A DNA stretch of 64,000 nt, taken from positions 1,452,676 to 1,516,675 of the forward strand of contig JAIZWL010000001.1 of the NCBI GenBank assembly GCA_021498125.1, in the 5' to 3' direction. Below, in pieces: positions 9,623 through 49,752 of the stretch; the stretch's first letter is position 1; every line of letters begins with the position of its first letter. Made by a program: the position numbers and the translations under genes. Below the pieces are notes generated by a model. The model searched no databases, was not told where the DNA came from, and saw only the letters and a program-made list of their open reading frames with translations. Source of the DNA: Candidatus Thorarchaeota archaeon. Its GTDB lineage: Archaea; Asgardarchaeota; Thorarchaeia; Thorarchaeales; Thorarchaeaceae.

Positions 9623-9722
9623 CGATGAGCACTCTCTCAGGGGGAATAGCTTACCGTGAGCGCGCTGGATTCAGTCCGCTCTTAAGGATTTGCCTCAGGG
9701 TATTTTGCTCCGATTTTTCCTT

Positions 9723-10691
9723 CTATCTCACCGAAATTCGATAAAATGTTGCTGAGCCGTATTTGATCTCCGTCACTGAAGGGTTGGATTCCAGCTCCTG
9801 TACGATCTCTTTCAAGGTCTGTTCTGTGTCCAGAGTACCTTCACGTTTGAGTAACAATGTCCTGATGTCTTCGATCCGCATCGGGTGGCGACTGATGATG
9901 TCCAGTACTGCCCGTACTGGGTTCTCCCTCAATGATACGAAATCACCCTCTGGGAGATAGTCTATTCTGTTCGCTGCGAGGATCTCTTTTGCTCTTGCAA
10001 CTCTTTCTTCGTCCGGAATTTCCACCCATTGCTCGGCAGGTGGTCTGACAGGCGTGTTGACAAAAATTCTGTCTGGTTGAAGATCACGCGCGAGGTCTGC
10101 GATGGCCATTAGTGCCTCGTCACTGTCATTGAGACCCTTCACCAGCATGACTTCCAAATAGAGCATTCCTGTGAAGATCTTTCGGAACTGTCTGTATCCC
10201 TCTATTCGCCTTTCAAAAGTGAGCCTGCTCAGGGGTCGATTGATCCGTCTGAGGCTCTCCTGATCCCAACTATCAAAGTTCAGCATCACCACATCCGCCT
10301 GAGCAACCTCCTCTCGCACATCTCTCTCAAAGAGGAGTGCACCATTAGAGATGACTGCAACAGGTTTCGATTGGAGTGCCTTTATTCTCTGGATGAGTGT
10401 GCCAAGTTCCGAGTAGAGTGTTGGTTCTCCATCGCCAACGATCGTGATGATATCATATTGATTCGGTTGGATCTGTTCAAGGTATTGTTTTAATTGTTTA
10501 ATTATATCGTCTACATCATAGAATGTCTGACGTTGGCGTACATAATGATGCGTCCGACCAAGCTGGCAGTACACACACGAATAGTTGCACGCCTTGTTGG
10601 GGATCGGACTGACTCCTAACGATTGACCTAGGCGACGCGAGGGAACGATTCCAAAGACGTTTGGGGTTTCAGCCTTTTCTGGTTCTGTCAT
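9723..10691 (-). CDS. Radical SAM protein with C-terminal winged-helix-like domain
   Basis: 322 residues. The radical SAM 4Fe-4S motif CNYSCVYC (CX3CX2C, about residues 35-42) is preceded by FGIVPSRRLGQSLGVSP, a signature of the COG0731-like radical SAM group that includes wyosine-synthesis relatives. The GDGEPT motif (SAM-binding GGE equivalent) follows the first beta strands. The last 75 residues look like a winged helix (ISRHPMRIEDIRTLLLKREG). The reaction is unknown. It lies between a dehydrogenase and a HepT-like gene without clear operon partners. Confidence 0.8.
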   Translation of the reverse strand: MTEPEKAETPNVFGIVPSRRLGQSLGVSPIPNKACNYSCVYCQLGRTHHYVRQRQTFYDVDDIIKQLKQYLEQIQPNQYDIITIVGDGEPTLYSELGTLIQRIKALQSKPVAVISNGALLFERDVREEVAQADVVMLNFDSWDQESLRRINRPLSRLTFERRIEGYRQFRKIFTGMLYLEVMLVKGLNDSDEALMAIADLARDLQPDRIFVNTPVRPPAEQWVEIPDEERVARAKEILAANRIDYLPEGDFVSLRENPVRAVLDIISRHPMRIEDIRTLLLKREGTLDTEQTLKEIVQELESNPSVTEIKYGSATFYRISVR

Positions 10692-10785
10692 GGTCGTATG
10701 TGATTATGAGCACATGCAGATAATAATGTAGGTATGGCTGCACTATCTCTGCTGTTATTTTTAATATTTAACGCAAGATTTGCCC

Positions 10786-11211
10786 TCAGAGATAGGGCAA
10801 TGACGCTGTGATCTGTTGCACAAAGGTATCCGCATCTACTATCAACATTGGAACAGACCTGATGATACTGCTCTCATCAACGTCTTGAAATTCATGGAGA
10901 ATACCGTTGGCAAGTTCTACAAATTTCATGAGGCTCTCGGCAAGATCATTCTTTATCACACCGTTTTGACTGATAACCATGAGGGCGTCCTTGTGCGTCA
11001 TTGGTTTTGACAATCTCTTGTGTGCAATGATGTGGATTGTAACATCACTGATTGCGTGTGTGATGATCTCAATTGTTCGTTCCGCCAAGCGAATACCTCG
11101 CCAAGGTTCCTCTGTTTCTTCTTCAAGTGTTTGCTTGATCCATTTTAGGTGTTCGATTTCTTCTTGGATTCGCCTCAACCTGCGTTTGATGTAATTTGTA
11201 TCTACAGCCAT
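10786..11211 (-). CDS. HepT-like (DUF86-type) helical protein without the catalytic arginine
   Basis: A 141-residue all-helical protein whose layout resembles HepT/DUF86, the RNase component of MntA-HepT pairs. A basic coiled-coil start (RRLRRIQEEIEHLKW) leads to a central AERTIEIITHAISDV helix and then the region where HepT carries RNxxxHxY. Here that site reads ANGILHEF (101-108), so the His is kept but the Arg is Ala and the Tyr is Phe. It is therefore unlikely to be an active nuclease of that type. No nucleotidyltransferase (MntA) partner lies beside it. Assignment is from pattern only. Confidence 0.5.
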   Translation of the reverse strand: MAVDTNYIKRRLRRIQEEIEHLKWIKQTLEEETEEPWRGIRLAERTIEIITHAISDVTIHIIAHKRLSKPMTHKDALMVISQNGVIKNDLAESLMKFVELANGILHEFQDVDESSIIRSVPMLIVDADTFVQQITASLPYL

Positions 11212-11490
11212 TTTATTTTGTCACCAAGTATCTCATTCATGTGCTCTTAACTATTTTGGATTATATTTCTGATTTCGTGAACATAACTATTTGGAGTCAC
11301 TACCAGATAGGATCATGTTTCCACAGTCAAACATTCCAATCGCGTTCTATTTTTAATATTTCCAACATACTCAACTATAGATTTGTGTCACTAGTGTATT
11401 GAAATCCCGATATACTATGACGATTCCCTGATAAATACGAATATAACTACAGTTGACAAACCCTGAAAGTGGCGGAATAGCCCGGTGATT

Positions 11491-28831: not shown

Positions 28832-29302
28832 TCAACGGTCAATTACGTATGTATTACTGATGAGGTCTTTGATCATCTCATGGATTCGAGGGGGATCACT
28901 GACAAAGGGTGTGAATGAATGAGTGCGTGCCTCTTCAATGCATGTCGCAATAGATGAGACCTCTTTGCACCAGATCAGGTGACCACGCCGAGCCATCTCT
29001 CCAATGAGCTGTGCCTGATGGCCTTCCATTAGCGACTTGTTCTCGACGACAACCAATCTGAGACCTCGCTTGACGCACTCCATTGTAGTGCCCGCCCCGC
29101 CAGTGCTCACGATGATGTCTGCTTTCTTGTAGGCAGCCTCGAGGGAACGGATAAACCGAAAATACCGAATGTGCTTTGGAATGTAGGAGCCGCGTCCGAT
29201 TTGAGCAATGACAGGTTCGGTGATGGTGCCGTCTCCGACAAGGCGATCCATCTCAATGATGAGCGGATCAAAATGAGCAGTACCGACAGTGACGAATATC
29301 AT
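28832..29302 (-). CDS. Alg13/PssE-like glycosyltransferase subunit
   Basis: 156 residues from ATG 29300-29302, the ATGA overlap start with the preceding gene; the longer frame to 29356 would add non-homologous residues. The start MIFVTVGTAHFDPLI and the later IVSTGGAGTTMECVKRGLRLVVVENKSLMEGHQAQL are hallmarks of the GT28 C-terminal half, as in yeast Alg13. That protein binds UDP-GlcNAc and pairs with membrane-bound Alg14 to add the second GlcNAc to dolichol-PP-GlcNAc. The donor and lipid here are not known; bacterial PssD/PssE use a different sugar. Close coupling to the Alg14-like gene supports a complex. Confidence 0.85.
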   Translation of the reverse strand: MIFVTVGTAHFDPLIIEMDRLVGDGTITEPVIAQIGRGSYIPKHIRYFRFIRSLEAAYKKADIIVSTGGAGTTMECVKRGLRLVVVENKSLMEGHQAQLIGEMARRGHLIWCKEVSSIATCIEEARTHSFTPFVSDPPRIHEMIKDLISNTYVIDR

Positions 29303-29790
29303 AGGAGCTGCCCTCCATAGATCGCTCCCGGTGTCTTGGCTGCAAGTTGGGGCCACTGGACCACGAACAGATTAGTCTTGCCTAAGAGGATTCTTCCCGT
29401 CATGGACATCTCTGTCACTCTGGACATACTCTCAACAAACACGGTCTTGATACCAAGCACACGGGCCGTATAGAATATTGGAACGGTCAGACCTGTACCG
29501 CAGCTGATGACCACGGCGGGGCGAAAGAGAATGAAGTAAATGAACGAGAGCATGAGTGTCACGAGGGTTCTGATGACCGCCATGATCTTGGAGTCCTGTG
29601 GAAGGAGGCGCGGGGGGAGCACTGGAAGCGTCCTTCCGGGGATGCGGACCTTTCGAGGTGTTAGTCGATCAAGTGCACCAATGAGGTACAGATACTCGAA
29701 CTGCGGGCCCAACAAGTCGACTAGGGCAAAGGTCTGTGCGGTATGGCCACCTCGTCCAAGAACAACTGCGATTCGTCTGCTCAATGCCAT
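29299..29790 (-). CDS. Alg14/PssD-like glycosyltransferase subunit
   Basis: 163 residues. The GRGGHTAQTFALVDLL motif and the SCGTGLTVPIFY motif define the Alg14/PssD half of a split GT28 enzyme that holds the lipid acceptor and anchors the complex to the membrane. A hydrophobic helix (VIRTLVTLMLSFIYFILF, about 72-89) fits membrane association. The stop overlaps the partner's ATG, so the two subunits are translationally coupled. In eukaryotes this step is early in N-glycan assembly. The dolichol-kinase-like gene at 50633 and the sugar cluster in between suggest the same broad purpose here. Confidence 0.85.
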   Translation of the reverse strand: MALSRRIAVVLGRGGHTAQTFALVDLLGPQFEYLYLIGALDRLTPRKVRIPGRTLPVLPPRLLPQDSKIMAVIRTLVTLMLSFIYFILFRPAVVISCGTGLTVPIFYTARVLGIKTVFVESMSRVTEMSMTGRILLGKTNLFVVQWPQLAAKTPGAIYGGQLL

Positions 29791-37444: not shown

Positions 37445-37494
37445 AATGAGGTAATACAAGACTATGTGACCAGCTTGGCAGCCTCCTATGATTC

Positions 37495-38422
37495 ATGCAC
37501 TACTACTCATCATACGATGCCACCAAGGCTCGTCATTCTCAGTTCTTGCTTGATGCACGTATCAACCTTAGTACTATGCTCCCCAAACGGTCCTCCTCCT
37601 TCGGTCGCCTGCCGGACTGCCCCCTCCCCGCCCTCTTTGTCCTCTTGGGCCTCAAGTTTTATCGATTCCGGCCTCAGCTACAGGGCCTTTGTCGCCCACC
37701 TCTCGCTCATGCCTCAGGTCCTTGAGCGCCTCGGGCTGGCACGGCCCCCCTCCTATTCCATTCTGCAACAGGCACTCCGACGACTGGACACTCGCCTCCT
37801 CCATCGCATGTATCGTCTCCTTGGCAGAGCGCGACCGCCTCCACGGACCGTCGCCGTGGACTATATTCCACTGGCTTCTCCCACTCCACAGGAGGGGAGT
37901 GGTTGTCGCTGCGGTTCAAAAAGACGCTGAGACGGCGATTTACTGCACTCCACGCCGTCGTGGACACCGACACCCTCCTGGTCCTTGCAGCACGGGTCCG
38001 GTCCCGACCCGGGGGCGATGCCAGACACATGGTCGCCCTCCTTGATCAGGTCGTGGCCCCACAACTCGAACGGGTCTACGGGGACAAGGCCTACCTCTCC
38101 CGAAAGGGCGAACGTCCAGTACATCCATGACCGGGGTGCCTATCCCGCCATCGAACCCAAGAGGGGCCTGACGGGCCGGTCGCGTGGGTATCGTGGCTAT
38201 AAGGAGCTGATCAGGGAGTACCGAAGAGACCCCGAGGGCTGGAAGGCCAGACACGCCTACGGGCAGCGGAGTCTGGTCGAGACCGTCTTTGGTATGATGA
38301 AGGTGAGGTTCGGAGGCGGCCTGACCTCACGAGGATTCCGCGAACAACGACGCGAGGTCCTGCTGAAGGTGCTCCTGCACAACATCGAGCGGCTCAACTT
38401 CCTGGAGTGTGATGGGAGGTGA
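37495..38422 (+). pseudogene. IS4/IS5-type DDE transposase, three frameshifts
   Basis: Protein homology moves between frames. Frame 1 (37495 to about 37665) ends in LFVLLGLKFYRF. Frame 2 (about 37665-37860) gives SGLSYRAFVAHLSLM and PSYSILQQALRRL then TVAVD. Frame 1 again (about 37861-38105) gives LYSTGFSHSTGGEWLSLRF, LHAVVDTDTLLVLAARV and VYGDKAYLSR. Frame 2 (about 38105-38422) gives VQYIHDRGAYPAIEPKRG and the catalytic-Glu block QRSLVETVFGMMKVRF. The DDE residues are all still visible (TVAVD, VYGD, SLVE). A lost C near 37860 and an extra G near 38106 would explain two shifts; a third lies near 37665. Not functional as a single protein unless by frameshifting. Confidence 0.8.
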
Positions 38423-38438
38423 CTTTTCACACAGAGCC
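38421..38438 (-). repeat. Right terminal inverted repeat of the IS
   Basis: 18 bp, perfect inverted match to 37427-37444. Confidence 0.9.
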
Positions 38439-38508
38439 GGATATTACGGATACCTTAATTAACAGAATTCTTTTCTCTGTCTTTTGTCCGTGGAGATGTG
38501 CGACAGAC

Positions 38509-39540
38509 GTGGCAAAGAAATGGTTCATGAAGCAGTATTGGCGAATTGGCACAATCAGATCTTTACTTAGTCTAATGTTAGGAATGTTTGTACTGGGGAG
38601 TAGGTATTATCTCTATATTCCAATACTTGCGGATATGGGTCTTATTGGGGCTTTGACTCTTGGATCTTTGCTGACGCTTCTCTTTATGGGCATAGGCTGG
38701 CTCTATGACGAAAAGGCAAAGATGTGGAGTCAACAAGTGCAAGCAACTACTGAAAGAAGCCCCTATCAGTACGTTTCTAATTACAAAGGGTATGCCTTTG
38801 ATTATCCTGTATTTTATGGCTTTCTAATGGTTATGCGTGACGTCTTAAAAAAGATGAATTTGTCCACTGATGCAATTCAAGATTGTATCGTATATCTGAA
38901 CTCGTACTTTAAGCGGGGCCTTTCGAAACATGATATCAATTCAGCTCTTCCAGCCGCAAAAGAATATATCACAGCGCATCCATTTACTGGTGATATCGAG
39001 CCCCATGAAAAACCAATCAGTTTGCGTGCTAGGATCAAACTTAGTTTTCAGATTAACCTTCTTAGGTTGACATGGATACAATCATCAACGGGTCTTGTGC
39101 AGGATGTCTTAGTATTTGGGGTATCCTATGTAATTCTGCTTGTACCCTCTGCAAATCTCACTGTAGATGATGCGCTTTCCTTCGAGTATCTCGTATTAGG
39201 ACTACTCTTTATTTCTCTACCCCTCTTTCTGCTCTTGGTAACACTTGGATGGATTTATGATCGGCGCTTGCGTATTTGGTCTCCAGATATGATTGTTAAG
39301 TTCGAAAGAAATCCCTATCAGTATCTACCAGAGCCTTATCTCCATATCATGTTATTTCCAGTATATATTGCACTTTTCAATACCTTTCGGAAGGTATTTC
39401 TAAAAGAAGGATTGGATACATCCAGCATTGACAAAATACTAACGTATCTCCAACAATATGCGGCTCTAGATGTTGGGCATACGAAAGATATGCAAAAGGC
39501 AAGGGATCTTAGAAACTCGCTAGGGGTGCTTTTTGGCTGA
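38509..39540 (+). CDS. Membrane protein with two tandem ERNPYQY-type units
   Basis: About 343 residues from GTG 38509. The frame is open from 38419, but its first codons lie inside the IS and are not native. Two similar units each have a pair of hydrophobic helices, a GW(L/I)YD motif after the second helix, an aromatic-charged W, and a (E)R(S/N)PYQY(V/L) stretch followed by a soluble helix bundle: GIGWLYDEKAKMW...TERSPYQYV in unit 1, LGWIYDRRLRIW...FERNPYQYL in unit 2. The single-unit gene downstream is a clear relative. The family is not one I recognise. The IS may have displaced the original promoter. Confidence 0.65.
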   Translation: MAKKWFMKQYWRIGTIRSLLSLMLGMFVLGSRYYLYIPILADMGLIGALTLGSLLTLLFMGIGWLYDEKAKMWSQQVQATTERSPYQYVSNYKGYAFDYPVFYGFLMVMRDVLKKMNLSTDAIQDCIVYLNSYFKRGLSKHDINSALPAAKEYITAHPFTGDIEPHEKPISLRARIKLSFQINLLRLTWIQSSTGLVQDVLVFGVSYVILLVPSANLTVDDALSFEYLVLGLLFISLPLFLLLVTLGWIYDRRLRIWSPDMIVKFERNPYQYLPEPYLHIMLFPVYIALFNTFRKVFLKEGLDTSSIDKILTYLQQYAALDVGHTKDMQKARDLRNSLGVLFG

Positions 39541-39546
39541 AGCTTT

Positions 39547-40068
39547 TTGATTGAGGCGATTACATTGAAACTTAGAAAGTGGCTTATGAAACAGCAATGG
39601 CGGATTGTACAGATTCGAGGGATTTGGGGGTTGTTCTATGGGATTCTATTACTTGCTATCTCTTTCTTCAAGTATGTGCCTATATTCGCGAACATGGGTA
39701 CATTAGGGCCATTTGCATTTTCAGCGGTGCTATTAATATTTTTTATGATTCTTGGCTATATCTATGATCGTGTTTTCATTATGTGGGCACCATCGCAAGA
39801 GGTTAGTATGGAACGAAATCCATACCAGTATGTCCCGAGTCCAAAGGATCACATCTTTTGGTTTCCACTCTATGCATCTCTTTTAGAGACCGCTGAGGCA
39901 CTAGCAAAAAAGTATGATGTTGATACCAAGTATATACGGGATGCGCGAGCCTATTATGCAAAGCTGCAGAATCTTCGACCAGAGAGGAATAAGGATCTGG
40001 ATTTTGCAGTCCAACTTCGAGATGAATTTATCAAGGAGCATCCGTTTAAAAATGACATGAAGAAGTAA
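39547..40068 (+). CDS. Single-unit member of the ERNPYQY membrane family
   Basis: 173 residues. MKQQWRIVQIRGIWGLFYG leads into two hydrophobic helices, ILGYIYDRVFIMW and MERNPYQYVPSPKDHI, then a helical tail rich in charges (RPERNKDLDFAVQLRDEFIKEHPF). It matches one unit of the upstream protein in order and motifs, including the HPF near the C-terminus that also ends unit 1 there. It starts 6 nt after the upstream stop, so the two are co-transcribed. A TTG start is used. Confidence 0.65.
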   Translation: MIEAITLKLRKWLMKQQWRIVQIRGIWGLFYGILLLAISFFKYVPIFANMGTLGPFAFSAVLLIFFMILGYIYDRVFIMWAPSQEVSMERNPYQYVPSPKDHIFWFPLYASLLETAEALAKKYDVDTKYIRDARAYYAKLQNLRPERNKDLDFAVQLRDEFIKEHPFKNDMKK

Positions 40069-40084: not shown

Positions 40085-41503
40085 TCACTTACTCACAGAG
40101 ATTAGTCGGTCCAAAAATGCTATTATATTTCTTACTGCATTATGACGGAAGAAGTATTCTGTATCGAATAATTTACTCTCCTTGTGTTCGTGAAGATATT
40201 CTAGTAATTCTTCAGGGGCCGATACCCTCTTTGCATATCCTGATGTTTCTAATTTGCTAAGGAATCCCACACTTGGTGCATCGATTAAAAATGTTCTCAG
40301 ACCAAATGCAAGGCCTTCAAAGAGTGCTGTGGATGAAACTCCAATTTGGATTATTGACTCTGCAAATAATTTGTATAATATTGTCCCACGGCCCTCGATA
40401 ATTTCTATGTCGGAATCAAGCAGTTCCGGATAGCGTTCTCTCCAATTGTGCCATTCACCAGGATGGAGTTTGTATATTATATTATATTCCCCATTAATTA
40501 TTTTGGAAAAATGTACTGCGAATTGTGGGATTGAATTTCCTATTCCCCACTGTGAGATAAATAATATTTGTTTCTTTTTTATTAAGTGGGCATACTTTTG
40601 CATTTGAATCTCCATATAGGGGTATCCTACACTAATTATCCGATCTTTTGGTAGTGGGAACTTGGCTGAATCACACCAATAATCCCCAAATAGGAGAAGG
40701 TAATTCGGAAATGTCCTTTTTGTGGCATGTTCTCCCTCGAATGAATATCCGAGATGCATGGGATAAATGACTCCATGTTGTAATTCCACAACTGGAATCG
40801 CGAGTTCGTTTGCGGCCTCTATTAAGTCCTCTTTGCCATAACCGACTATACAAACTATGGCTTTCGGTTTTATTCGTTTCAGCATTATATTATAGAGTGG
40901 GAGTATGGTCTTTCTTTTGAGAAGCACATTGTATATTAGATCTCTGAGATTCATTTTGACTCCGAATCGGTCATAGATTGTGACTTCAATTTGTCTAATC
41001 AATTTTCTTTCGGCAGGACTAAATCTCAGCTTGCATAGTCCAAGTCGCTTCTTGATTTCTGTAAGTAAAACGAGAAAATCCATGTATCGCATGTTTTTTG
41101 TCTTTGCAGGTGCCCGGTGCTGAAGCCTAAAATCCGGTTCAAGTAATACATAGGATCGACTAATCTTTGCAAGTATTGGATCAACGTATATGTCCCACCA
41201 GTAACCATCTTCAAACATCAGCCGTCTTGGACTGTTCACGAAGAGGATGTCTTTCTTTCTGCAGAGGAACGGATTTTTAAATATATTTACAAATGCACGA
41301 ATATAGAACAGTATGAGATTCTTGTGCGAATGCTTTGTAGCAAATGAGGTAGTGGTTTCTCCCGCGATGTTATTATAAATATAGGTATAGACTCTGAATC
41401 GTATTCTCTCCCAAAAGAAAATCCCGGTTATCCTTTTCGAGAAAAGACTCATGTCTTTCTCAAACTTTAGAAATTCTTCAGACATCTTGTCTATATCCGT
41501 CAT
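40085..41503 (-). CDS. GT-B-like surface-carbohydrate biosynthesis protein
   Basis: 472 residues. The C-terminal half shows two Rossmann-like parts with VELQHGVIYPMHLGYSFEG, then YKLHPGEWHNW and SSTALFEGLAFG, as in CDP-glycerol/polysialyl-type or capsule GT-B transferases. The N-terminal 150 residues are helical and specific. It lies at the edge of the pseudaminic-acid genes, and its likely job is to transfer the CMP- or nucleotide-activated sugar to a carrier. It does not look like PseG, which is shorter and has different motifs. The substrate is not known. Confidence 0.65.
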   Translation of the reverse strand: MTDIDKMSEEFLKFEKDMSLFSKRITGIFFWERIRFRVYTYIYNNIAGETTTSFATKHSHKNLILFYIRAFVNIFKNPFLCRKKDILFVNSPRRLMFEDGYWWDIYVDPILAKISRSYVLLEPDFRLQHRAPAKTKNMRYMDFLVLLTEIKKRLGLCKLRFSPAERKLIRQIEVTIYDRFGVKMNLRDLIYNVLLKRKTILPLYNIMLKRIKPKAIVCIVGYGKEDLIEAANELAIPVVELQHGVIYPMHLGYSFEGEHATKRTFPNYLLLFGDYWCDSAKFPLPKDRIISVGYPYMEIQMQKYAHLIKKKQILFISQWGIGNSIPQFAVHFSKIINGEYNIIYKLHPGEWHNWRERYPELLDSDIEIIEGRGTILYKLFAESIIQIGVSSTALFEGLAFGLRTFLIDAPSVGFLSKLETSGYAKRVSAPEELLEYLHEHKESKLFDTEYFFRHNAVRNIIAFLDRLISVSK

Positions 41504-41701
41504 GGATTCATATCCCTTTCCAATTCTTGGTGCTGATGCTTGTTAGGTCTATTGTTGTTTTTTTCTTAAACCCTGTTCTGTCTTTTTATTTTCTAATCCT
41601 TTCGAGTCAAAGTAGTTGTTCAAGTTTTCGCCAAGAGCCCTAGAAAAAGATTGTCTATGTCCGACGCTAATATATTATATACGGGATGCGTGTGTATCAA
41701 C

Positions 41702-42334
41702 TTACGGTGCTTGCTTTTCCAGAAGGAACATTATGTCAACATTCTCATTGTGGAGATATTTGACCATTCGTTTCTTGACCAGAATTAGATCGGGGAAGGT
41801 TTCTTGGAATACTCGAAGGAAATTATTTTTCCAGAGTCGATTCTTATGTCCCCGATATTCTATCTCCGTGCACTCATCGGCAAAATACTCGAAACACCAA
41901 ATGTATTTTCGGGAAACACGATAGATCTCTTTTATTGCGTTTTGCAAATTCTCTGGGGGAATATGAATAAGGACTCCACTAGTGAATGCAAGATTAAAGA
42001 ACCCCTCCTTGAATGGGATATCATAGATGGAACCTTCTACGATATTAAATTTTTTATTCTCACGCGCAATTTCGATTGCTTTTTTATTGATCTCGATGCC
42101 CCAGAGATTTGTAAAGCCTTGTTTTTCAAGGACCTGAAGTTGATTTCCACGGTTGCAACCTATTTCAAGAATTCTTGCGTCGTGGGGGATTCCCGTCAGA
42201 AATTCTTCATTCAATGAGGTTCGAGTTACTCCCCACTGACTTTTGTAAAACGCATCCCAGTCCCCAACGTTCCGGATGGTGTATTCGTCCCCAAAATTGC
42301 CCTCCCAAAATTTTTCCTGTTCAGTTTTTTTCAT
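41702..42334 (-). CDS. Pseudaminic acid biosynthesis-associated methylase (TIGR03587-like)
   Basis: 210 residues from ATG 42332-42334; the frame opens 162 nt earlier but that extension is not homologous. The start KKTEQEKFWEGNFGDEYTIRN is the family signature; LEIGCNRGNQLQVL is the SAM-binding motif I, and DIPFKEGFFNLAF follows. Members occur only with pseudaminic/legionaminic-acid gene sets. The methyl acceptor is unproven (possibly the sugar or a carrier). It is divergent to the amidotransferase gene, with only 106 nt between them for both promoters. Confidence 0.85.
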   Translation of the reverse strand: MKKTEQEKFWEGNFGDEYTIRNVGDWDAFYKSQWGVTRTSLNEEFLTGIPHDARILEIGCNRGNQLQVLEKQGFTNLWGIEINKKAIEIARENKKFNIVEGSIYDIPFKEGFFNLAFTSGVLIHIPPENLQNAIKEIYRVSRKYIWCFEYFADECTEIEYRGHKNRLWKNNFLRVFQETFPDLILVKKRMVKYLHNENVDIMFLLEKQAP

Positions 42335-42440
42335 TGTAGCAACCACGATTTTTGCGCTATGACGGTGAACTCGGCCAATAAACAACAATCTTATAAACTT
42401 GCCAGTATTGGGTACTCCGCATAATTGAGGTTGATTCTTC

Positions 42441-43529
42441 ATGGAACGCTGTAAGCGATGCACAATGCCTAACACACGTCCGGGATCAATTTTCAAAGAT
42501 GGTGTATGCCAAGCATGTCGTAACTATGACTTGCGTTCTACTGTTGATTGGGATAAGCGAAAACAGGAACTGCGAGAGCTGTGCGACAAGTACCGCAGTG
42601 ATGATGGAAGTTACGACTGTATTCTGCCGGTCAGTGGTGGCAAGGACTCGTATTTTCTTGCACACACTTTGGTTAAAGAGATGGATATGCATCCGCTTCT
42701 TGTTACAGTTACGGATAGTTTTACGCATACAAATGCCGGAGTTCACAACCTTCGGAATTTAATCGAAACCTTCAAACTGAACCATTATCTGTATACCATT
42801 AATCATGATCTGTTCAGAAGAGCAACACGAATTGCTTTTGAAGAAACAGGGGAATGTCTGAAATTTGTCGAATATGCAATATATACAATCCCTACACTTG
42901 TAGCTCAGAAATTTGATATTCCTCTTGTTGTTTTCGGGGAGAACTCTGCTTTTGAATATGGTTCAACCGAGACCAATTTCTATGATGCCACCCCCGTAGT
43001 ACAGGCCATGTCTGATGCCTTAGAGAAAGACCGTGACTGGTGGGTGAAGCATGGTCTGACCAGTCCTGAGGTCAGTTCTATTCAACTAGATAAGAACAAG
43101 GATCTTCCTATAGTCATATACATGAGCTACTTTATCCCTTGGAGCAGTGTTCGTAATCGTTCTGTTGCTAAGAGATATGGGTTCAGAGATCTGACTCATG
43201 AATGGATTCGTGAGGGTTACATAGAGAACTTTGAACAAATAGACTCGGTCGCCTATATGGTGCATCTTTGGATGAAATATCCGAAATTCGGTTTTCAACG
43301 AGTTTCCGATATAGCTAGTAGACGAGTACGAGAGGGGCGTCTTACACTTGAAGAAGCAAGGCGTCTTATTCGTGAGGGTGATTCAATCCTTGATCAGCGG
43401 GCACTACAAGATTATATCGACTTTCTGGGTTATACCGAGAAAGAGTTCTGGGATATTGTGGAAAAGTTCTGGAATCGGGACATTTTCGAGCAGCGCGATG
43501 GCGAATGGGTTCTGAAAACGCCTCTCTGA
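42441..43529 (+). CDS. N-acetyl sugar amidotransferase (PseA/WbpG-like)
   Basis: 362 residues. The zinc-like CKRCTMPNTRPG and CQACRNY cysteines and the ATP-pyrophosphatase loop PVSGGKDS (63-70) place it in TIGR03573, which adds an acetamidino group in pseudaminic or related sugar synthesis. It appears to need an ammonia donor (glutaminase partner) that is not recognised nearby. It leads a plus-strand run with a GT2 and PseH-like gene. Confidence 0.87.
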   Translation: MERCKRCTMPNTRPGSIFKDGVCQACRNYDLRSTVDWDKRKQELRELCDKYRSDDGSYDCILPVSGGKDSYFLAHTLVKEMDMHPLLVTVTDSFTHTNAGVHNLRNLIETFKLNHYLYTINHDLFRRATRIAFEETGECLKFVEYAIYTIPTLVAQKFDIPLVVFGENSAFEYGSTETNFYDATPVVQAMSDALEKDRDWWVKHGLTSPEVSSIQLDKNKDLPIVIYMSYFIPWSSVRNRSVAKRYGFRDLTHEWIREGYIENFEQIDSVAYMVHLWMKYPKFGFQRVSDIASRRVREGRLTLEEARRLIREGDSILDQRALQDYIDFLGYTEKEFWDIVEKFWNRDIFEQRDGEWVLKTPL

Positions 43530-43619
43530 CATTCCACAGATTCCTAGAGCATAGAACGTTAATAGGCTGGTGTATTCACTAGATATTCAATCTATGAACA
43601 ATGGGGATGTGTTTCAATC

Positions 43620-44285
43620 CTGAAACCCGCGATAACCGTCATAATTCGAACCTATAATAGTCAGAATACGATACAACGCGCTCTTGATAGTGCTATAAAT
43701 CAAACACTGTCCCCAGACCTCTATAGAATACTGGTGGTTGACGATGGCTCATCTGATCAGACACTGGATATCGTTCAGAGATACAAGAATATCGATGTTC
43801 TTCTGTGCGATCACCGGGGTGCGGTTCAAGTTCTAAATAGTGCTCTTAAGAAAGCGACCACTCCCTATTTTATATTACTTGACTCAGATGATTGTTTTGA
43901 GCCGCGTATTCTAGAGAAACAGTATAATGCACTTCTCAGGGATCCATCTATTGACTTTGTATATTGCGACTACTATGAAGTCATAAATGGGATTAAGAAG
44001 ATTGTTTCCGTCAAGGATAATCTCTTCCATACACTCGCGGCAGGCATTATGCATTCAATGAAACTTATACGGCTGCACGGGTATTATGATGAGACCTTGG
44101 TCTTCCCTGAGTACGATTTTTTGATGAAAATACTCCCCACAGCACGAGGATATCATATTCCCGAGCCATTATACACCTACTACAGAATGGATACTAGTCT
44201 GACCTCAAAAAAGGATCTTGTTCAGAAAGGTCGAAAACAATTATTTGATAGGTATGGGAAACAACTATCAATACGGGACTTTTAG
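43620..44285 (+). CDS. GT2 family glycosyltransferase with no standard start codon
   Basis: About 221 residues. The fold core begins LKPAITVIIRTYNSQNTIQRALDSAINQT, split here only by quoting: the GT-A start ITVIIRTYN, then LVVDDGSSDQT and LLDSDDCFEP. No ATG, GTG or TTG precedes the conserved strand in this frame before a stop at 43563. The nearest reasonable start is CTG 43620. An ATG at 43607 is in another frame, so a one-base deletion is the alternative. Beginning at ATG 43734 would remove strand 1 and the UDP-binding loop. Its C-terminal part has a PEYDFLMKIL acceptor-type motif. Confidence 0.75.
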   Translation: MKPAITVIIRTYNSQNTIQRALDSAINQTLSPDLYRILVVDDGSSDQTLDIVQRYKNIDVLLCDHRGAVQVLNSALKKATTPYFILLDSDDCFEPRILEKQYNALLRDPSIDFVYCDYYEVINGIKKIVSVKDNLFHTLAAGIMHSMKLIRLHGYYDETLVFPEYDFLMKILPTARGYHIPEPLYTYYRMDTSLTSKKDLVQKGRKQLFDRYGKQLSIRDF

Positions 44286-44296
44286 GAGCGAGTGAA

Positions 44297-44785
44297 TTGG
44301 AAGCGCCAAGTTTGAATGATGGATACGTTTTCTTGGATTCTGTTAAAGATGAAGATCTTGAGCTGCTTCTAGCTTGGAGATCGCATCCTGATGTGTATCG
44401 CTACTTCCATGCACAGAGTTCTCCGTTACATTGGGACGAGCATTACAAGTTCTGGACTACCCGAAAAGATCGACTTGATTGGATAATATCCGTAGACGAT
44501 GGCATACGTAAACGTAAGGTTGGGAGCGTGAATGTGTCTCACCTTTCAAGTCCCGCACCTGAGATCGGTATTTTCATTGGTGAAGTGACACTTATGGGAC
44601 ACGGAGTTGGGAAACGTTCTCTGAAGCTAGTTCTTCTTTATTTGAAATCTCAGGGATATCTCCGAGCAACAGCCAGAATTGCTGAAGGTAATATTCCGTC
44701 ACAGCGCTTATTTGGATCATTAGGCTTTGTTCGAAAAGAGAAGATCCCCGATGCGGATGCTTATCTTTACGAACTGGTCTTTTGA
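44297..44785 (+). CDS. pseH: GNAT acetyltransferase, PseH-like
   Basis: 162 residues. GNAT fold: LAWRSHPDVYRYF, then EIGIFIGEVTLMGHGVGKRSL (motif A, acetyl-CoA loop) and AEGNIPSQRLFGSLGFVRKEKI. PseH acetylates the 4-amino group of UDP-4-amino-4,6-dideoxy-AltNAc in pseudaminic-acid synthesis, and this domain is the right size and context. A TTG start at 44297 is used, 11 nt after the GT2 stop. Other GNAT substrates cannot be ruled out. Confidence 0.8.
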   Translation: MEAPSLNDGYVFLDSVKDEDLELLLAWRSHPDVYRYFHAQSSPLHWDEHYKFWTTRKDRLDWIISVDDGIRKRKVGSVNVSHLSSPAPEIGIFIGEVTLMGHGVGKRSLKLVLLYLKSQGYLRATARIAEGNIPSQRLFGSLGFVRKEKIPDADAYLYELVF

Positions 44786-44831
44786 CTTTCGCTTGTTTAT
44801 GAACCTTATTTGTCGTATGAACGGTACATGG

Positions 44832-45968
44832 CTATTTCAAGAAAAGTTGAAGTGATTCGAGAACATACTGAATCTCTTCATCGGTGAGTTTGGGGAACAT
44901 CGGCAATGATATGATCCTCTCATAAAATGCCTCTGTCTGTGGCAAGAATTCGTCCTTATAGCCCGACGACCTATAATATGGATGCCAATAAATGGGAATA
45001 TAGTGAACTTGGCAGAATATTCCTCTGTTTTTCAAGAAATTAAATAATTCTAATCGCATTTTTGCATTTTCCACTTTGATCACATAGAGATGATATGCAT
45101 GAAACTCGTAATTTCTCTCTTGAATAATCTCGACCTTGTCGCTGTATTTTTCGAAAAAGTCATTGTATGTTCCTGCTATCTCTCGTCTCTTTTTGATGAA
45201 TTGATCAATTCGTGATAGTTGCGACAGACCGAGGGCGGCCTGAATGTCAGTCAGCCGATAATTATAGCCGAGCTGATGCATCTCTTGATACCATGGTTCA
45301 GTATGTTGTGTTTGGAACTTTCTCTGATCCTTTGTGATTCCATGAGATCTAAGACTTCGGAGAAGTTCATTCATCTCTTTGTCATTGGTAGTGATGACAC
45401 CCCCTTCGCCTGTTGTGATATGTTTCACTGGATGTAGACTGAAGGCGGTAAGGTCTGAATAACGATTGTCCCCTATTTTCGAATCTCTATATTTTGCACC
45501 TATCGCATGACTTGCATCCTCAATGACAAATAGATCATTCTCATGAGCGATTTTAGAAATCTCGGTGCGTTCGACTGGCAATCCCATATAATGCACGGGA
45601 ATGATACCTACGGTTCGCTCTGTAATATGTTGGGGAATCTGTTCGGGGTCAAGTAGACCGCGTTCAGTTATATCTGAAAATACAGGGGATCCTGAGTTAT
45701 AGAGAACGCAATTTGATGTTGCCGCGAACGACATGGGTGTGGTTATCACTTCAGTATTAGGGGCGACTCCCAGAGCTTTTGCAGCAAGATGAAGCGCTGC
45801 TGTTCCACTTGTGACCGCAATAGCATATTTCGCGCCGACATATTTGGCAAACTCTTTTTCAAAGGTGTCGATAAAAGGGCCAGTCGTCAGGAAGTCCGAA
45901 TCCAAGACTTCCATAACTCGTTGTTTGTCCTCCTCGGAGATCCATTGTTTTCCATATGGAATTCTCAT
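44832..45968 (-). CDS. pseC: PseC-like PLP aminotransferase (DegT/DnrJ family)
   Basis: 378 residues. The start IPYGKQWISEEDKQRV and SDFLTTGPFIDTFEKEF are typical of PseC-type sugar aminotransferases. The PLP lysine is in SLHPVKHITTGEGG (K182). It converts the 4-keto sugar made by PseB into the 4-amino sugar. It lies 12 nt after pseB on the same strand. Confidence 0.92.
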   Translation of the reverse strand: MRIPYGKQWISEEDKQRVMEVLDSDFLTTGPFIDTFEKEFAKYVGAKYAIAVTSGTAALHLAAKALGVAPNTEVITTPMSFAATSNCVLYNSGSPVFSDITERGLLDPEQIPQHITERTVGIIPVHYMGLPVERTEISKIAHENDLFVIEDASHAIGAKYRDSKIGDNRYSDLTAFSLHPVKHITTGEGGVITTNDKEMNELLRSLRSHGITKDQRKFQTQHTEPWYQEMHQLGYNYRLTDIQAALGLSQLSRIDQFIKKRREIAGTYNDFFEKYSDKVEIIQERNYEFHAYHLYVIKVENAKMRLELFNFLKNRGIFCQVHYIPIYWHPYYRSSGYKDEFLPQTEAFYERIISLPMFPKLTDEEIQYVLESLQLFLK

Positions 45969-45980
45969 TCTCCCACTTCC

Positions 45981-47018
45981 TTAGAGTAGGTTTAATTTTT
46001 CTAAATACTTTTTAAGATCTTCTTTTGAAAGCACGTGATCCTTTGATGAGTATTCTTTTAGTTCCCCATTTGCCATGTGTTGGCCCTTTTGCATATAGAT
46101 GGGTTGTTCAATTTCGTCTTGATATTTTCTTATGAGTGATGTAATCGCAAAAATATCTTTATATTTATATGTTAAAGGCATCTCATATTCATTGATGAGA
46201 AGCTCGTGAATCTTTTCACCGGGGCGTATCCCTATAATATCAATGGGATTATCTGCATGAAGCAAGTCCTTTAGTACATCAATCAAGTCAATGATGCGTG
46301 TTGACGGAATGAATGGTACAATGACCTCGCCGCCTACACTATAGGCAAGTGCTTTCATGATCAAATCAACAGCCTGATCTGCTGATATGATAAACCGTGT
46401 CATGTCCGGATGGGTTAGCGGGATCGGTTCTCCTCTCTCGATTTTTTCCTTGAAAATTGGAATGATCGAGCCGGTGCTGGCAAGTACATTTCCATAACGT
46501 ACACAGCTTAAGAGCGTCCTTGATTTTCCTTTACTATAATTGGTTTCTGTAAAGATGCGTTCTCCAAGAAGTTTGCATGCACCATACGAGTTCAATGGGG
46601 CGCATGCTTTGTCTGTAGAGATAAACAGGGCATGGCGCACATTATTGGCAACAGCGGCATTTGCCACATTCAAGGTTCCAATAATATTGGTCTTGATCGA
46701 TTCGGCCACATTGTATTCAATCATGTCGATTCTTTTCAATGCGGCTGCATGAATTATTATGTCCACACCTTTTGTTGCGCGTTCCAACCGTGGATAGTCC
46801 CGCACATCGCCTATCAGATTTCGAATGTATGGGTTTTCACCAAATTCGACATTAAAATGAAAATGTTTGACTTCATCTCTACTGAAGACTCTGATGGACT
46901 GAGGGGAGTACCTTAGAAATCTTTTCACGAGGCTCTTCCCAAGGAAACCAGTGCCCCCTGTAATCAGGATTACCCTATCATGCACGAGTTCAGCAATTTT
47001 TTTATCAAAATCAATCAA
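45981..47018 (-). CDS. pseB: PseB-like UDP-GlcNAc inverting 4,6-dehydratase
   Basis: 345 residues, extended SDR. NAD-binding ILITGGTGFLGKSL (18-31), the STDK loop (134-137), active-site NSYGACK (Y145, K149) and VRYGNVLASTGSIIPIF are as in PseB/FlaA1-type dehydratases that convert UDP-GlcNAc to the 4-keto-6-deoxy-AltNAc. The soluble form lacks the membrane helices of PglF-type retaining enzymes. It is followed directly by pseC, the next enzyme of the pathway. Confidence 0.92.
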   Translation of the reverse strand: MIDFDKKIAELVHDRVILITGGTGFLGKSLVKRFLRYSPQSIRVFSRDEVKHFHFNVEFGENPYIRNLIGDVRDYPRLERATKGVDIIIHAAALKRIDMIEYNVAESIKTNIIGTLNVANAAVANNVRHALFISTDKACAPLNSYGACKLLGERIFTETNYSKGKSRTLLSCVRYGNVLASTGSIIPIFKEKIERGEPIPLTHPDMTRFIISADQAVDLIMKALAYSVGGEVIVPFIPSTRIIDLIDVLKDLLHADNPIDIIGIRPGEKIHELLINEYEMPLTYKYKDIFAITSLIRKYQDEIEQPIYMQKGQHMANGELKEYSSKDHVLSKEDLKKYLEKLNLL

Positions 47019-47084
47019 AAGGTACTCACTCTCTGGTTATGTACTATTCCACCAAACACAACAATGGCCGTAATTTGAACTTTG

Positions 47085-47858
47085 CTATGTCATTCTTGTG
47101 TCTACTTCTTTGAAATGCTTCTGTTTGACACCACTGTTGATTGTAGCAATTTCTGGATGGGCGTCTAAAAACTCTATTATTTTGCGATGATCCGCATTAA
47201 TTAGGTCTTCTTTGAAATGATCATAGATGGCTAAAATTAGTCTGTAATCAGTTTCAGTGTCAACGCATAGTCGATATCTTGGTCTGCAATCCGGAGGCTC
47301 CGGGAAGAGATACTCTGTGGTGAAATTCTCTTGATGCGTGTACAAATATGGCATCACATGTTCTCGTTCATATTTTTCGGTGGCCTCTGAAGCTGCTATT
47401 GCCAAGGACTCAAACTTAGCCACTTCGACATCAAATCCCCTCGGATATGCACACTCCTTATTTTCTCCTATGGAAATAGTGAGATAATCCACGTCTCTTT
47501 CGAGAAATGATACAACCGCGTAATCGATGAGTTTCGGAGAGATGACCGGGCAGTCGCCAGTGACTCGCACAACAACATCCGCCTGCTGAGATTTTGCGGC
47601 CTCGAAGAATCTTGAGAGAACATCATCTTCTGACCCGCGAAATACCGCAAAACCAAGATCCCTCACATATTCTGCTAATGGGTCGTCTGACGGATTGGTG
47701 GATGTGGCTAAGATGACTTTATTGACTAGGTGAGCTTGACTCGCCCGTTTTAAGACGAGTTCAACGATCGACCAACTACCTATTTTTTTGAGAGATTTTT
47801 TTGGGAGGCGGGATGAGTTCATCCGTGCTTGGACAATGCACACAATATTTTGAGTCAT
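47085..47858 (-). CDS. pseF: PseF-like CMP-sugar cytidylyltransferase (SpsF family)
   Basis: 257 residues. VCIVQARMNSSRLPKKSL is the nucleotide-binding motif, and VVVRVTGDCPVISPKLIDY is the metal-binding block of SpsF/PseF-type transferases, which join CMP to pseudaminic acid. It lies upstream of pseB and pseC on the same strand, 66 nt from pseB. Other nonulosonic acids are possible substrates. Confidence 0.85.
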   Translation of the reverse strand: MTQNIVCIVQARMNSSRLPKKSLKKIGSWSIVELVLKRASQAHLVNKVILATSTNPSDDPLAEYVRDLGFAVFRGSEDDVLSRFFEAAKSQQADVVVRVTGDCPVISPKLIDYAVVSFLERDVDYLTISIGENKECAYPRGFDVEVAKFESLAIAASEATEKYEREHVMPYLYTHQENFTTEYLFPEPPDCRPRYRLCVDTETDYRLILAIYDHFKEDLINADHRKIIEFLDAHPEIATINSGVKQKHFKEVDTRMT

Positions 47859-47985
47859 TGTTTTTCAATAAATTTTGTATTTGCAAACGTTAATGAGTTT
47901 GTCTATCGAATAAATTGGCTTCATGCTATTCTGTTTCTCCAAGAATCTATATATGATGTTTATAGTTGGATTAGTTGGTGACTAA

Positions 47986-49035
47986 ATGAAGACTATACTG
48001 ATTGATAATATTGCAGTTGGCGATAACCAACCCGTCTTCATTGTTGCTGAGATCTCTGCCAATCATTTACAAGATTATGATCTTGCTGTGAAGCTCATTG
48101 ATGCCGCTGCAAAATCGGGAGCTAATGCAATCAAGTTGCAGACCTATACGCCCGATACTATCACACTCGATTCCGACAACGATTATTTCAAAATAAAACA
48201 GGGGACCATATGGGACGGGCGCACTCTCTATGATCTCTATAGCGAAGCATATACGCCTTGGGAATGGCAGCCAAAACTGAAGAAATATGCAGAGGAGCAG
48301 GGGCTTGTATGTTTTTCGTCACCTTTTGATTCTACTGCCGTAGATTTCCTAGAAAAAATAAATATCCCGGCCTATAAGATCGCTTCTTTTGAAATCACTG
48401 ATATTCCTCTGATCGAGTATGTTGCTTCTAAAGGTAAACCTGTTATTATCTCGACGGGGATTGCTACGACTGAAGATATTGAAGCGGCAGTCCAAGCATG
48501 TAGACGACAACACAACAACGACATAATTATTTTAAAATGCACCTCTGCCTATCCCACCCCACTACAGGAAGTAAATCTGCGAACTATGCCGGACATGAGG
48601 AGCCGCTATGATTGTCTTGTGGGCCTATCCGATCATACTAAAGGGGTTTCCGTTCCTATTGCATCAGTGGCACTTGGGGCATGTATGATTGAGAAGCATA
48701 TAATCTTGGATCGAGATATGGGAGGGCCCGATGCAGCATTCTCATTGGAGCCTGATGAATTCAAATCCATGGTTACAAGTGTACGTGAGGTCGAGGAGGC
48801 TCTGGGTGTAGTTGATTATTCTTTGACCAGTAAGAAGAAGAAGAGCCGAGAGTTTGCGCGTTCGCTATTTATAGTGAAGGATATTGCTGCTGGTGAAAAA
48901 TTAACTCCTGACAATGTTCGTTCGATTCGGCCCGGATACGGTCTTCCCCCAAAATTTCTGAAGGATGTGCTTGGGCGAACAGCGAAAAAAGAAATTAAAC
49001 GAGGCACGCCTCTCACATGGGATCTGCTGGAATAG
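47986..49035 (+). CDS. pseI: Pseudaminic acid synthase, PseI (NeuB family)
   Basis: 349 residues. NeuB domain (FIVAEISANHLQDYDLAVKLI, AIKLQTYTPDTITLD) with the PseI-specific GTIWDGRTLYDLYSEAYTPW and FSSPFDSTAVDFLE. A C-terminal SAF (antifreeze-like) domain carries SLFIVKDIAAGEKLT and VRSIRPGYGLPP. It condenses the 6-deoxy hexose with phosphoenolpyruvate to make the nine-carbon sugar. A TATA-like ATCTATATATG lies about 40 nt upstream. The motif match makes pseudaminic rather than legionaminic or neuraminic acid the most probable product. Confidence 0.93.
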   Translation: MKTILIDNIAVGDNQPVFIVAEISANHLQDYDLAVKLIDAAAKSGANAIKLQTYTPDTITLDSDNDYFKIKQGTIWDGRTLYDLYSEAYTPWEWQPKLKKYAEEQGLVCFSSPFDSTAVDFLEKINIPAYKIASFEITDIPLIEYVASKGKPVIISTGIATTEDIEAAVQACRRQHNNDIIILKCTSAYPTPLQEVNLRTMPDMRSRYDCLVGLSDHTKGVSVPIASVALGACMIEKHIILDRDMGGPDAAFSLEPDEFKSMVTSVREVEEALGVVDYSLTSKKKKSREFARSLFIVKDIAAGEKLTPDNVRSIRPGYGLPPKFLKDVLGRTAKKEIKRGTPLTWDLLE

Positions 49036-49098
49036 TTTTCTAGTTCCGCTTATCATCGCCGACATGTTTATTTTTAATTGCCTGAGTTACTTTCAATA

Positions 49099-49752
49099 AT
49101 GAACAACCCTCTCATTACTCGGCTAAAAGAAAGGATCTTACGTGAGACCTCATTAGTTGCGAATCAGGACTGGCAACGGATTGTTAACACAGATGGGCCT
49201 CCAATTTACAATTATCGCAGGGATCATGTTGCAAGTGTTGTTGCAACTGCCTGTTATCTGGCCAAAGAAGCAGGTGCGGACATGGATGTTGTATTAATTG
49301 CTGCTTGGTTGCATGATGTTGCCAAACCCGGTCTTGGTGGGCCTGATGATCATGGCGTTGAGGGTGCAAAAATTGCCACACAGATTTTGACTGATGAAGG
49401 TATTGATTCAAAAATGATTGAGCGTGTCACATATGCGATCCGCTCCCATGTTGGTCTTGTACGTGATACGCCTCTTGATACTGTCGAGGCTCAGGTATTA
49501 TGGGAAGCTGACAAACTTGTAAAACTGGGGGTGATTGGGTTTATCCATTATGTTATCAATGGGCTTCAGCTTAAACCCGGGATGGGACTGGTGGATCTTC
49601 ATAGCAAGCTGGAAGAGTTTCTCCCGCTTGCAGAAAAAATTGCAGGAAGCATGATTACTCCGCCCGCCAAACGAATGGCAAAGGAGAGGCTTCAGGTTCT
49701 AAAAGATGTTGTTTTATCGTTGAAGCGGGAATTATATTTTGGTGGTGAATAG
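49099..49752 (+). CDS. HD-domain phosphohydrolase
   Basis: 217 residues. HD motif: DHVASVVATACYLAKEAG then AAWLHDVAKPG, H-rich loop DDHGVEGAKIA, and AIRSHVG, with a final Asp in LWEADKLVKLG. Such proteins hydrolyse nucleotide or phosphoester bonds using metal. ATG 49099 is preferred over TTG 49078: the TATA-like TTTATTTTTAA (49067-49077) puts the transcription start at about 49098, so the mRNA would be leaderless. The next gene overlaps its stop. Confidence 0.85.
   Translation: MNNPLITRLKERILRETSLVANQDWQRIVNTDGPPIYNYRRDHVASVVATACYLAKEAGADMDVVLIAAWLHDVAKPGLGGPDDHGVEGAKIATQILTDEGIDSKMIERVTYAIRSHVGLVRDTPLDTVEAQVLWEADKLVKLGVIGFIHYVINGLQLKPGMGLVDLHSKLEEFLPLAEKIAGSMITPPAKRMAKERLQVLKDVVLSLKRELYFGGE

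Follow-up and report, generated by a model that had tools for sequence, protein, structure and literature searches.

A Thorarchaeota pseudaminic acid island without a recognizable PseG, and the recurrence of this gap in one group of Asgard PseI synthases

Can a pseudaminic acid (Pse) island work without PseG? In the cytidine monophosphate (CMP)-pseudaminic acid pathway of Campylobacter and Helicobacter, the steps are carried out by PseB, PseC, PseH, PseG, PseI, and PseF, and PseG is treated as indispensable. The same steps are restated in passages of PMC5109656 and PMC13317340. A 64,000-nucleotide stretch of a Candidatus Thorarchaeota genome raised this question (assembly GCA_021498125.1, contig JAIZWL010000001.1, positions 1,452,676 to 1,516,675 of the forward strand; hereafter, the window, whose positions are used throughout). 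Its initial annotation described a near-complete Pse island in mixed orientation at 40085 to 49035, with no visible PseG, and proposed that PseG lay elsewhere or that another protein performed its step. We found all the island genes present at about these positions, and two profile searches bore out the gap for the genome as assembled. We give a modest preference to the reading that the island leads to CMP-pseudaminic acid, that an unlinked, nonhomologous enzyme fills the PseG gap, and that the glycosyltransferase B (GT-B)-type protein encoded at 40085 transfers the sugar. If true, this would be a PseG-independent route to pseudaminic acid.

We carried out the genome-wide search that the initial annotation had proposed on the source assembly (14 contigs totaling 3.11 Mb; completeness, 98.24%; not closed) with two PseG models. 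One was TIGR03590 (cut-off, 153.55), and the other was a 16-row archaeal-type profile whose rows came from loci of Asgard archaea, haloarchaea, Methanobrevibacter, and bacteria, sequences from genomes G006 and G098 among them (G000 is the source genome, the other G numbers denote other genomes, and L numbers denote named loci). TIGR03590 and the archaeal-type profile each gave 0 matches in the source genome at E values up to 10, and all frames of the window stayed at or below 6.2 bits with the archaeal-type profile. The description of a near-complete Pse island without PseG therefore stands. Of the two explanations offered for it, a PseG encoded elsewhere in the source genome is now unlikely given these searches, and another protein is the better half of the proposal.

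The genes on either side of the gap were identified with different degrees of certainty. PseI, the pseudaminic acid synthase (47986 to 49035, plus strand), scored 513 bits with TIGR03586 (cut-off, 340), and its best PDB match by a wide margin was 8h2c, "Pseudaminic acid synthase," with 335 bits, against 190 for SpsE and 177 for SiaC. PseC, the UDP-4-amino-L-AltNAc transaminase (44832 to 45968, minus strand; UDP, uridine diphosphate), scored 463 bits with TIGR03588 (cut-off, 423.5); among its solved relatives, 2fn6, which we take to be the Helicobacter PseC, ranked fifth. A PseB-type inverting UDP-N-acetylglucosamine (UDP-GlcNAc) 4,6-dehydratase (45981 to 47018, minus strand) reached 327 bits with TIGR03589, below the equivalog cut-off of 408. 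Its best PDB match was 2gn4, "UDP-GlcNAc C6 dehydratase" (253 bits), with the active-site stretch STDKA..PxNxYGA.KL aligned. The PseF step is predicted to fall to an SpsF/KdsB-type cytidylyltransferase (47085 to 47858, minus strand; CTP_transf_3, PF02348, 109 bits; PDB match 6oew, "Cytidylyltransferase," 118 bits), which gave 19 bits with the PseF family TIGR03584 against a cut-off of 206. The GNAT N-acetyltransferase (44297 to 44785, plus strand; PF13302) is PseH-like, with 30 bits to the PseH model TIGR03585 (cut-off, 93), and its best solved relative was M. jannaschii MJ1062 (155 bits), which may have the same role. Among the labels of the initial annotation, PseI and PseC were thus confirmed above cut-off and PseB was retained below cut-off, whereas PseH had to be softened to PseH-like and PseF had to be given up for an SpsF-type protein.

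The amidotransferase and the Pse-type methylase of the initial annotation were both borne out. The former (42441 to 43529, plus strand) is an N-acetyl sugar amidotransferase of the WbuX/PseA type (TIGR03573, 292 bits; cut-off, 203) and the predicted maker of an acetamidino group. The latter is the Pse-associated methylase (41702 to 42334, minus strand; TIGR03587, 199 bits; cut-off, 112). Its open reading frame as listed extends to 42496 (264 amino acids), and the TIGR03587 profile spans residues 57 to 262, so the start is presumably the inner ATG at residue 55. The product of the island probably bears an acetamidino or N-methyl-acetamidino group, as predicted from these two genes. PtmH is required for N-methylated acetamidino legionaminic acid, according to passages of PMC13317340, a role that fits the copresence of the WbuX-type protein and the methylase in the window.

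In the proposed pathway, PseB, PseC, and the GNAT protein would produce UDP-2,4-diacetamido-2,4,6-trideoxy-L-altrose, and UDP would be split off by an enzyme not recognizable as PseG. PseI would then condense the sugar thus freed with phosphoenolpyruvate. CMP would be attached by the SpsF-type protein, decoration would fall to the WbuX-type protein and the methylase, and the GT-B protein would move the sugar onto a surface glycan. All reactions of this scheme are inferred, as are the sequence of the decorating steps, the transfer of the sugar, and the unlinked, nonhomologous hydrolase.

The PseG gap was not confined to the source genome. The source class comprises 47 genomes of one family, and TIGR03590 matched three of them: G006, G041, and, through a weak piece only, G005. 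Of 227 Asgard genomes searched for PseI, 45 had a match at 1e-60, 10 exceeded the cut-off, and 9 scored more than 450 bits. The tenth genome over the cut-off, G140 (344 bits), was not counted with the nine, since the reference closest to its synthase was the G009 NeuB; its PseG search gave two short matches (best E, 3.4e-4). Six of the nine strong-PseI genomes had no credible PseG by either model: G000 and G030, which are Thorarchaeota-like, and G058, G059, G067, and G074, which belong to the Heimdallarchaeota-like family f6. At E values up to 10, TIGR03590 gave 0 matches in G000, G030, G059, and G074 and partial matches in G058 (E, 0.018; 15 bits, within its GT-B gene) and G067 (E, 0.07). Under the same limit, the archaeal-type profile gave 0 matches in G000, G030, and G074 and partial matches only in G058, G059, and G067 (best E, 0.0048). 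PseG-type sequence was found with TIGR03590 in the other three strong-PseI genomes, full length near PseI in G098, adjoining PseI and cut by a contig end in G138 (46 bits), and on a different contig from PseI in G135 (60 bits). The archaeal-type profile detected PseG-type sequence in these three and in G006 and G041.

The six PseG-less genomes share more than the gap. In a tree of 16 synthases, their PseI proteins formed one group (support, 93/91) beside that of the PseG-bearing G098. A row of SpsF, PseB, and PseC genes beside a divergent PseI gene was complete in G000, G058, and G074 and was the same up to the contig ends in G030, G059, and G067. A hexapeptide acetyltransferase gene lies beside PseI in all four f6 genomes, whereas the window has its GNAT gene elsewhere in the island. 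As far as the contigs reach, we saw no gene beyond the core that was common to all six islands; therefore, the gene for a replacement hydrolase probably lies outside the island, unlinked to it. We also listed the residues conserved in the six PseG-less PseI proteins but not in the others, and none was tied to the active site. The chance of losing PseG from all six assemblies is about 2e-6 by a naive estimate that treats the completeness values as independent. The absence of PseG thus looks lineage specific rather than due to an assembly gap, and the simplest reading of the tree would be one loss or replacement in this PseI branch. PseG is missing from a 98%-complete genome and from five related islands; therefore, another enzyme probably does the step. 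Six genomes that keep the other core steps without PseG point to such an enzyme and narrow the search for it to a few organisms.

Several observations weigh against this interpretation. The PseB, PseH, and PseF calls, as scored above, do not reach their respective NCBIfam equivalogs or lie outside them, and the Asgard PseG matches all lie below the curated cut-off, in the class (0/47 genomes reach it) as in the ten genomes above the PseI cut-off. Completeness is 78 to 88% in five of the six assemblies without PseG, three of the six islands end at contig ends inside the module, and the support of 93/91 for the PseI group falls short of the starred level of the tree tool. No candidate replacement hydrolase turned up among the proteins examined, and the replacement is argued from absence. 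In addition, among ten genomes with the GT-B family that were searched with the archaeal-type profile, PseG matches were absent for L091, L102, L086, and L089 and were weak and partial for L112 and L092. These six islands all carry NeuB-type genes, and a missing PseG is therefore not unique to the Asgard group. The pieces of these six loci showed no clear PseB/PseC pair, except that L089 has a LegC-like gene; NeuC was not looked for across their whole genomes.

The explanation that survives best beside a replacement, though we judge it unlikely, is that PseG is there but undetected, either in an assembly gap or diverged past both profiles. The source genome is indeed not closed, and PseG is highly variable, as the G098 copy scored about 78 to 79 bits with TIGR03590, below the cut-off, and matched no Pfam family. 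However, the archaeal-type profile recovered that copy, which is one of its rows, with 251 bits and the copy of the L096 genome, which is not, with 273 bits, and found nothing in G000, G030, and G074 even at an E of 10. Moreover, the distance between PseG and PseI is no more than 2 kb in G098 and G138 and no more than 3 kb in four bacterial islands described below (L186 to L189), whereas the window has no such frame.

A second explanation, more doubtful still, is that the pathway is partial or decaying, or that PseI is fed its sugar by another route, so that the product is not pseudaminic acid. A broken transposase-like stretch recognized by eye at 37466 to 38422 would agree with decay, as would a short GT2 glycosyltransferase gene within the island (43620 to 44285, plus strand; PF00535, 94 bits over residues 6 to 116) that has no ATG, GTG, or TTG start where it presumably begins. 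The scarcity of the pathway would agree too, since a survey of 122 archaeal genomes, cited in a passage of PMC6137143, reported complete nonulosonic pathways in six species only. In contrast, PseB, PseC, SpsF, and PseI are intact frames, and their 59.5 to 71% identity to the G030 counterparts (206 residues compared for PseC) suggests selection; the core gene set is repeated in six genomes as far as the contigs extend.

The remaining question is what the GT-B protein does. The initial annotation had singled out this protein (40085 to 41503, minus strand), whose family has no name, as an unexplained member of the island. It matched no NCBIfam family at an E of 0.01, TIGR03590 included, and no Pfam family at an E of 0.5, PF02350 included, and its family had no PDB sequence match even with a 27-row profile. 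An AlphaFold2 model built with 61 relatives had a mean predicted local distance difference test (pLDDT) score of 93.1 (a single-sequence model had 36) and a GT-B fold. Its structural matches included UDP-GlcNAc 2-epimerases (Z, 18.6; root mean square deviation [rmsd], 4.5 over 320), MurG (Z, 18.1; rmsd, 3.9 over 310), TarL (Z, 16.9; rmsd, 4.2 over 298), NeuC (Z, 16.4; rmsd, 4.6 over 314), and, tied with many others, the 3-deoxy-D-manno-octulosonic acid (Kdo) transferase WaaA (2xci; Z, 16.1; rmsd, 5.2 over 316). The family alignment has invariant QH, HP, S, and E positions, which we take to resemble the nucleotide-binding motifs of GT-B enzymes.

The company that this family keeps argues for a transferase. 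At 1e-10, it was present in 31 of the 227 Asgard genomes, and, by record titles, it extends to haloarchaea, Methanobrevibacter, Bacillota, spirochaetes, and others. Among 167 confirmed stretches in genome contigs, we kept the best 80 as loci; all but one, L055, which was not aligned, had a GT-B frame of more than 400 amino acids, and 61 of these 79 were aligned for the structure model. A NeuB-type synthase was encoded on 59 of the best 80 pieces. In the Asgard set, GT-B and NeuB-type genes co-occurred in 21 of 227 genomes against 6.1 expected (P, 2e-10, not corrected for kinship), with both on one contig in 13 of the 21 and within about 10 kb in 12. Among the partners of the family were NeuC-type islands, NeuA-PseG fusions, and Pse islands, some having PseG and others lacking it. 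It stands alongside PseG in G006 and G098 and alongside a NeuC-type hydrolase in G009 and G016 (425 and 419 bits, respectively, over the TIGR03568 cut-off) and, by similarity, in G025. In L016, at 9605 to 11281, we noted a fusion of a NeuA-type cytidylyltransferase and a PseG-type hydrolase. Frames that resemble it in size (about 545 to 580 amino acids) and contain the PseG part were seen again, together with NeuB and GT-B genes, in pieces from Methanobrevibacter, haloarchaea, and bacteria. The family thus accompanies nonulosonic acid islands in Asgard archaea, haloarchaea, Methanobrevibacter, and Bacillota, and its members are candidate archaeal nonulosonic acid transferases. For the protein at 40085, we regard this predicted role as likely.

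This assignment has its own difficulties. The GT-B fold of the model sets neither the donor nor the reaction, hydrolase or transferase, and the single 40085 sequence gave no match as the query of a first scan of genome contigs. No NeuB-type gene was on the piece in 21 of the 80 loci, 5 of these pieces being longer than 16 kb. Furthermore, 10 of the 31 Asgard genomes with the family had no NeuB-type match at 1e-60, and in 8 of the 21 co-occurrence genomes the two genes were on different contigs.

The GT-B protein was also a natural suspect for the missing step, and the idea that it is itself the hydrolase, a PseG analogue on the same fold, draws on structural matches that include the hydrolyzing NeuC as well as nonhydrolyzing 2-epimerases and MurG, on the presence of a family member in all six PseG-less genomes, and on the 15-bit match of the G058 member to TIGR03590; yet we consider it very improbable, given that the family resides with PseG, NeuC, or, in Methanobrevibacter cassettes, a NeuA-PseG fusion, that its PseG-less members are scattered in a tree not sorted by hydrolase content (G030 is the sister of the NeuC-type G016, and G067 is nearly identical to G063, G065, and G073, the synthase of G063 being below the PseI cut-off), and that the N-terminal GxGH motif, invariant in the 16 PseG rows, is absent from the 40085 protein and occurs in only 2 of 62 family members, at other sites (residues 290 and 409).

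Returning to the reading of an unlinked replacement enzyme and a GT-B transferase, we examined the borders of the island. On the left, a membrane protein with two copies of an approximately 150-amino-acid repeat detected by blastp (38419 to 39540, plus strand) is followed by a third copy (39547 to 40068, plus strand; 34% and 31% by blastp to the two halves of its neighbor). This pair has an RNPYQYV-like repeat motif, matches no Pfam family above cut-off, and adjoins the GT-B gene in G000, G002, G006, G009, and G016. On the right, an HD-domain gene (49078 to 49752, plus strand; PF01966, 44 bits) forms the border with genes that we label CinA-like, DolK-like, and PUA-like, and the four occur together in G006, G009, and L067, where they accompany other sugar cassettes. 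The initial annotation had taken the membrane family for a second unexplained member of the island; it is a flanking pair that stays beside other sugar cassettes.

The same flanks thus surround three different cassettes. In G000, they hold the Pse cassette. In G006, they hold WecB, a NeuA-PseG fusion, and a gene of the NeuB type that scored 343 bits with NeuB_NnaB, below cut-off. In G009, the cassette comprises NeuB (408 bits) and NeuC, both over cut-off, with NeuA-like, PseB/PseC-like, WbuX, HisF, and HisH genes, some recognized by eye; the families closest to the G009 genes labeled LegB and LegC are PseB and PseC, whose cut-offs these genes do not reach. Three cassettes at one address would suggest that Asgard archaea swap surface sugars as bacteria swap capsule types. 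A wider reading, which we offer tentatively and would not yet favor, is that an Asgard branch swapped PseG for an enzyme of another family and that the 40085 protein belongs to a new archaeal and bacterial family of nonulosonic acid transferases serving any resident cassette.

Two further features of this region were recorded. The broken transposase-like frames at 37466 to 38422 (plus strand), flanked by a GT2 gene and by the membrane pair, consist of two pieces (154 and 145 amino acids, by eye) and look like a decayed insertion element. In 1-kb steps, the G+C content was 37 to 44% in the nine from 40 to 49 kb, 45 to 49% in the next three, and then 40%.

Other candidates for the missing hydrolase were examined and rejected. 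A TIM-barrel protein (PF01261, xylose isomerase-like) is encoded directly after PseC in the f6 Pse islands of G058 and G074 (L167, 14432 to 15217; L168, 13951 to 14730), but it had no match in G000 or G030; 3 of 20 genomes matched, one genus throughout, the third match being partial. The HD protein at 49078 was set aside since it keeps with the CinA-, DolK-, and PUA-like genes in G006, G009, and L067, where other hydrolases are present, and does not adjoin PseI in G030. The split Alg13/Alg14 pair at 28832 to 29790 (minus strand), the only PF04101 match of the genome, occurs near the G030 island, and it was rejected since it is also found near the PseG-bearing G041 island and in G016, near the island, and L067. 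Finally, the genome's single strong PF02350 protein (C1:656094) is WecB, with 376 bits against a cut-off of 210 and 77 bits to NeuC, and has no full-length counterpart in G030.

How does the island compare with known systems? A phrase search found no paper on a PseG-less pathway and none combining nonulosonic acid with Asgard archaea or sialic acid with Thorarchaeota, most subscription journals being outside the coverage of these searches. In archaea more widely, passages of PMC6137143 report Pse in a Methanobrevibacter smithii extract, and a part of PMC11337218 reports Pse/Leg-type masses measured in a Methanoperedens enrichment. The legionaminic acid island of Halorubrum sp. PV6 resembles the window in providing an archaeal nonulosonic acid for a surface glycan and differs in having LegG, a hydrolyzing 2-epimerase; the passages of PMC6137143 on this strain do not name the GT-B family. 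For the transferase, a portion of PMC12887879 describes the pseudaminyltransferase KpsS1, which founded GT118, and the Kdo transferases of GT99, GT107, and GT140. These are modified GT-B or related ulosonic acid transferases, and the 40085 protein has a GT-B fold and a predicted role of this kind, yet it had no Pfam or PDB sequence match, and these families were not among the 50 structural matches listed for it.

Four haloarchaeal loci (L081, L083, L088, and L096) share with the window an SpsF-type gene (in three of the four pieces), the same GT-B family, and a PseC-like transaminase (385 to 411 bits against the cut-off of 423.5). Unlike the window, all four genomes have a PseG (273 to 322 bits with the archaeal-type profile, to which all of them but that of L096 supplied rows). 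Their synthases scored 345 to 360 bits with NeuB_NnaB against 313 to 329 with PseI, below both cut-offs. Because the synthases are nearer NeuB_NnaB, these genomes test how the profile performs and do not bear on the expectation that PseG accompanies every Pse island.

The bacterial islands were drawn from 53 records of plasmid PseI matches, at ranks 1, 2, 3, and 16: L186 (Parabacteroides), L187 (Aureibacter), L188 (Acetoanaerobium), and L189 (Peribacillus). Their PseI proteins are 51 to 63% identical to that of the window, PseB- and PseC-type genes are present in the stretches read of L186 to L188, and L188 has an SpsF-like protein, recognized by eye. Unlike the window, all four carry a PseG-type gene within 3 kb of PseI, annotated as such in L186, where it is fused, and in L189, and scoring 116 and 117 bits with TIGR03590, below the cut-off, in L187 and L188, respectively. 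Compared with the Campylobacter and Helicobacter systems, the window likewise gathers PseB-, PseC-, and PseI-type proteins, an N-acetyltransferase, a cytidylyltransferase, an amidotransferase, and a methylase in one island; it differs from them in its SpsF-type cytidylyltransferase, in an acetyltransferase that is only PseH-like, and in having no PseG.

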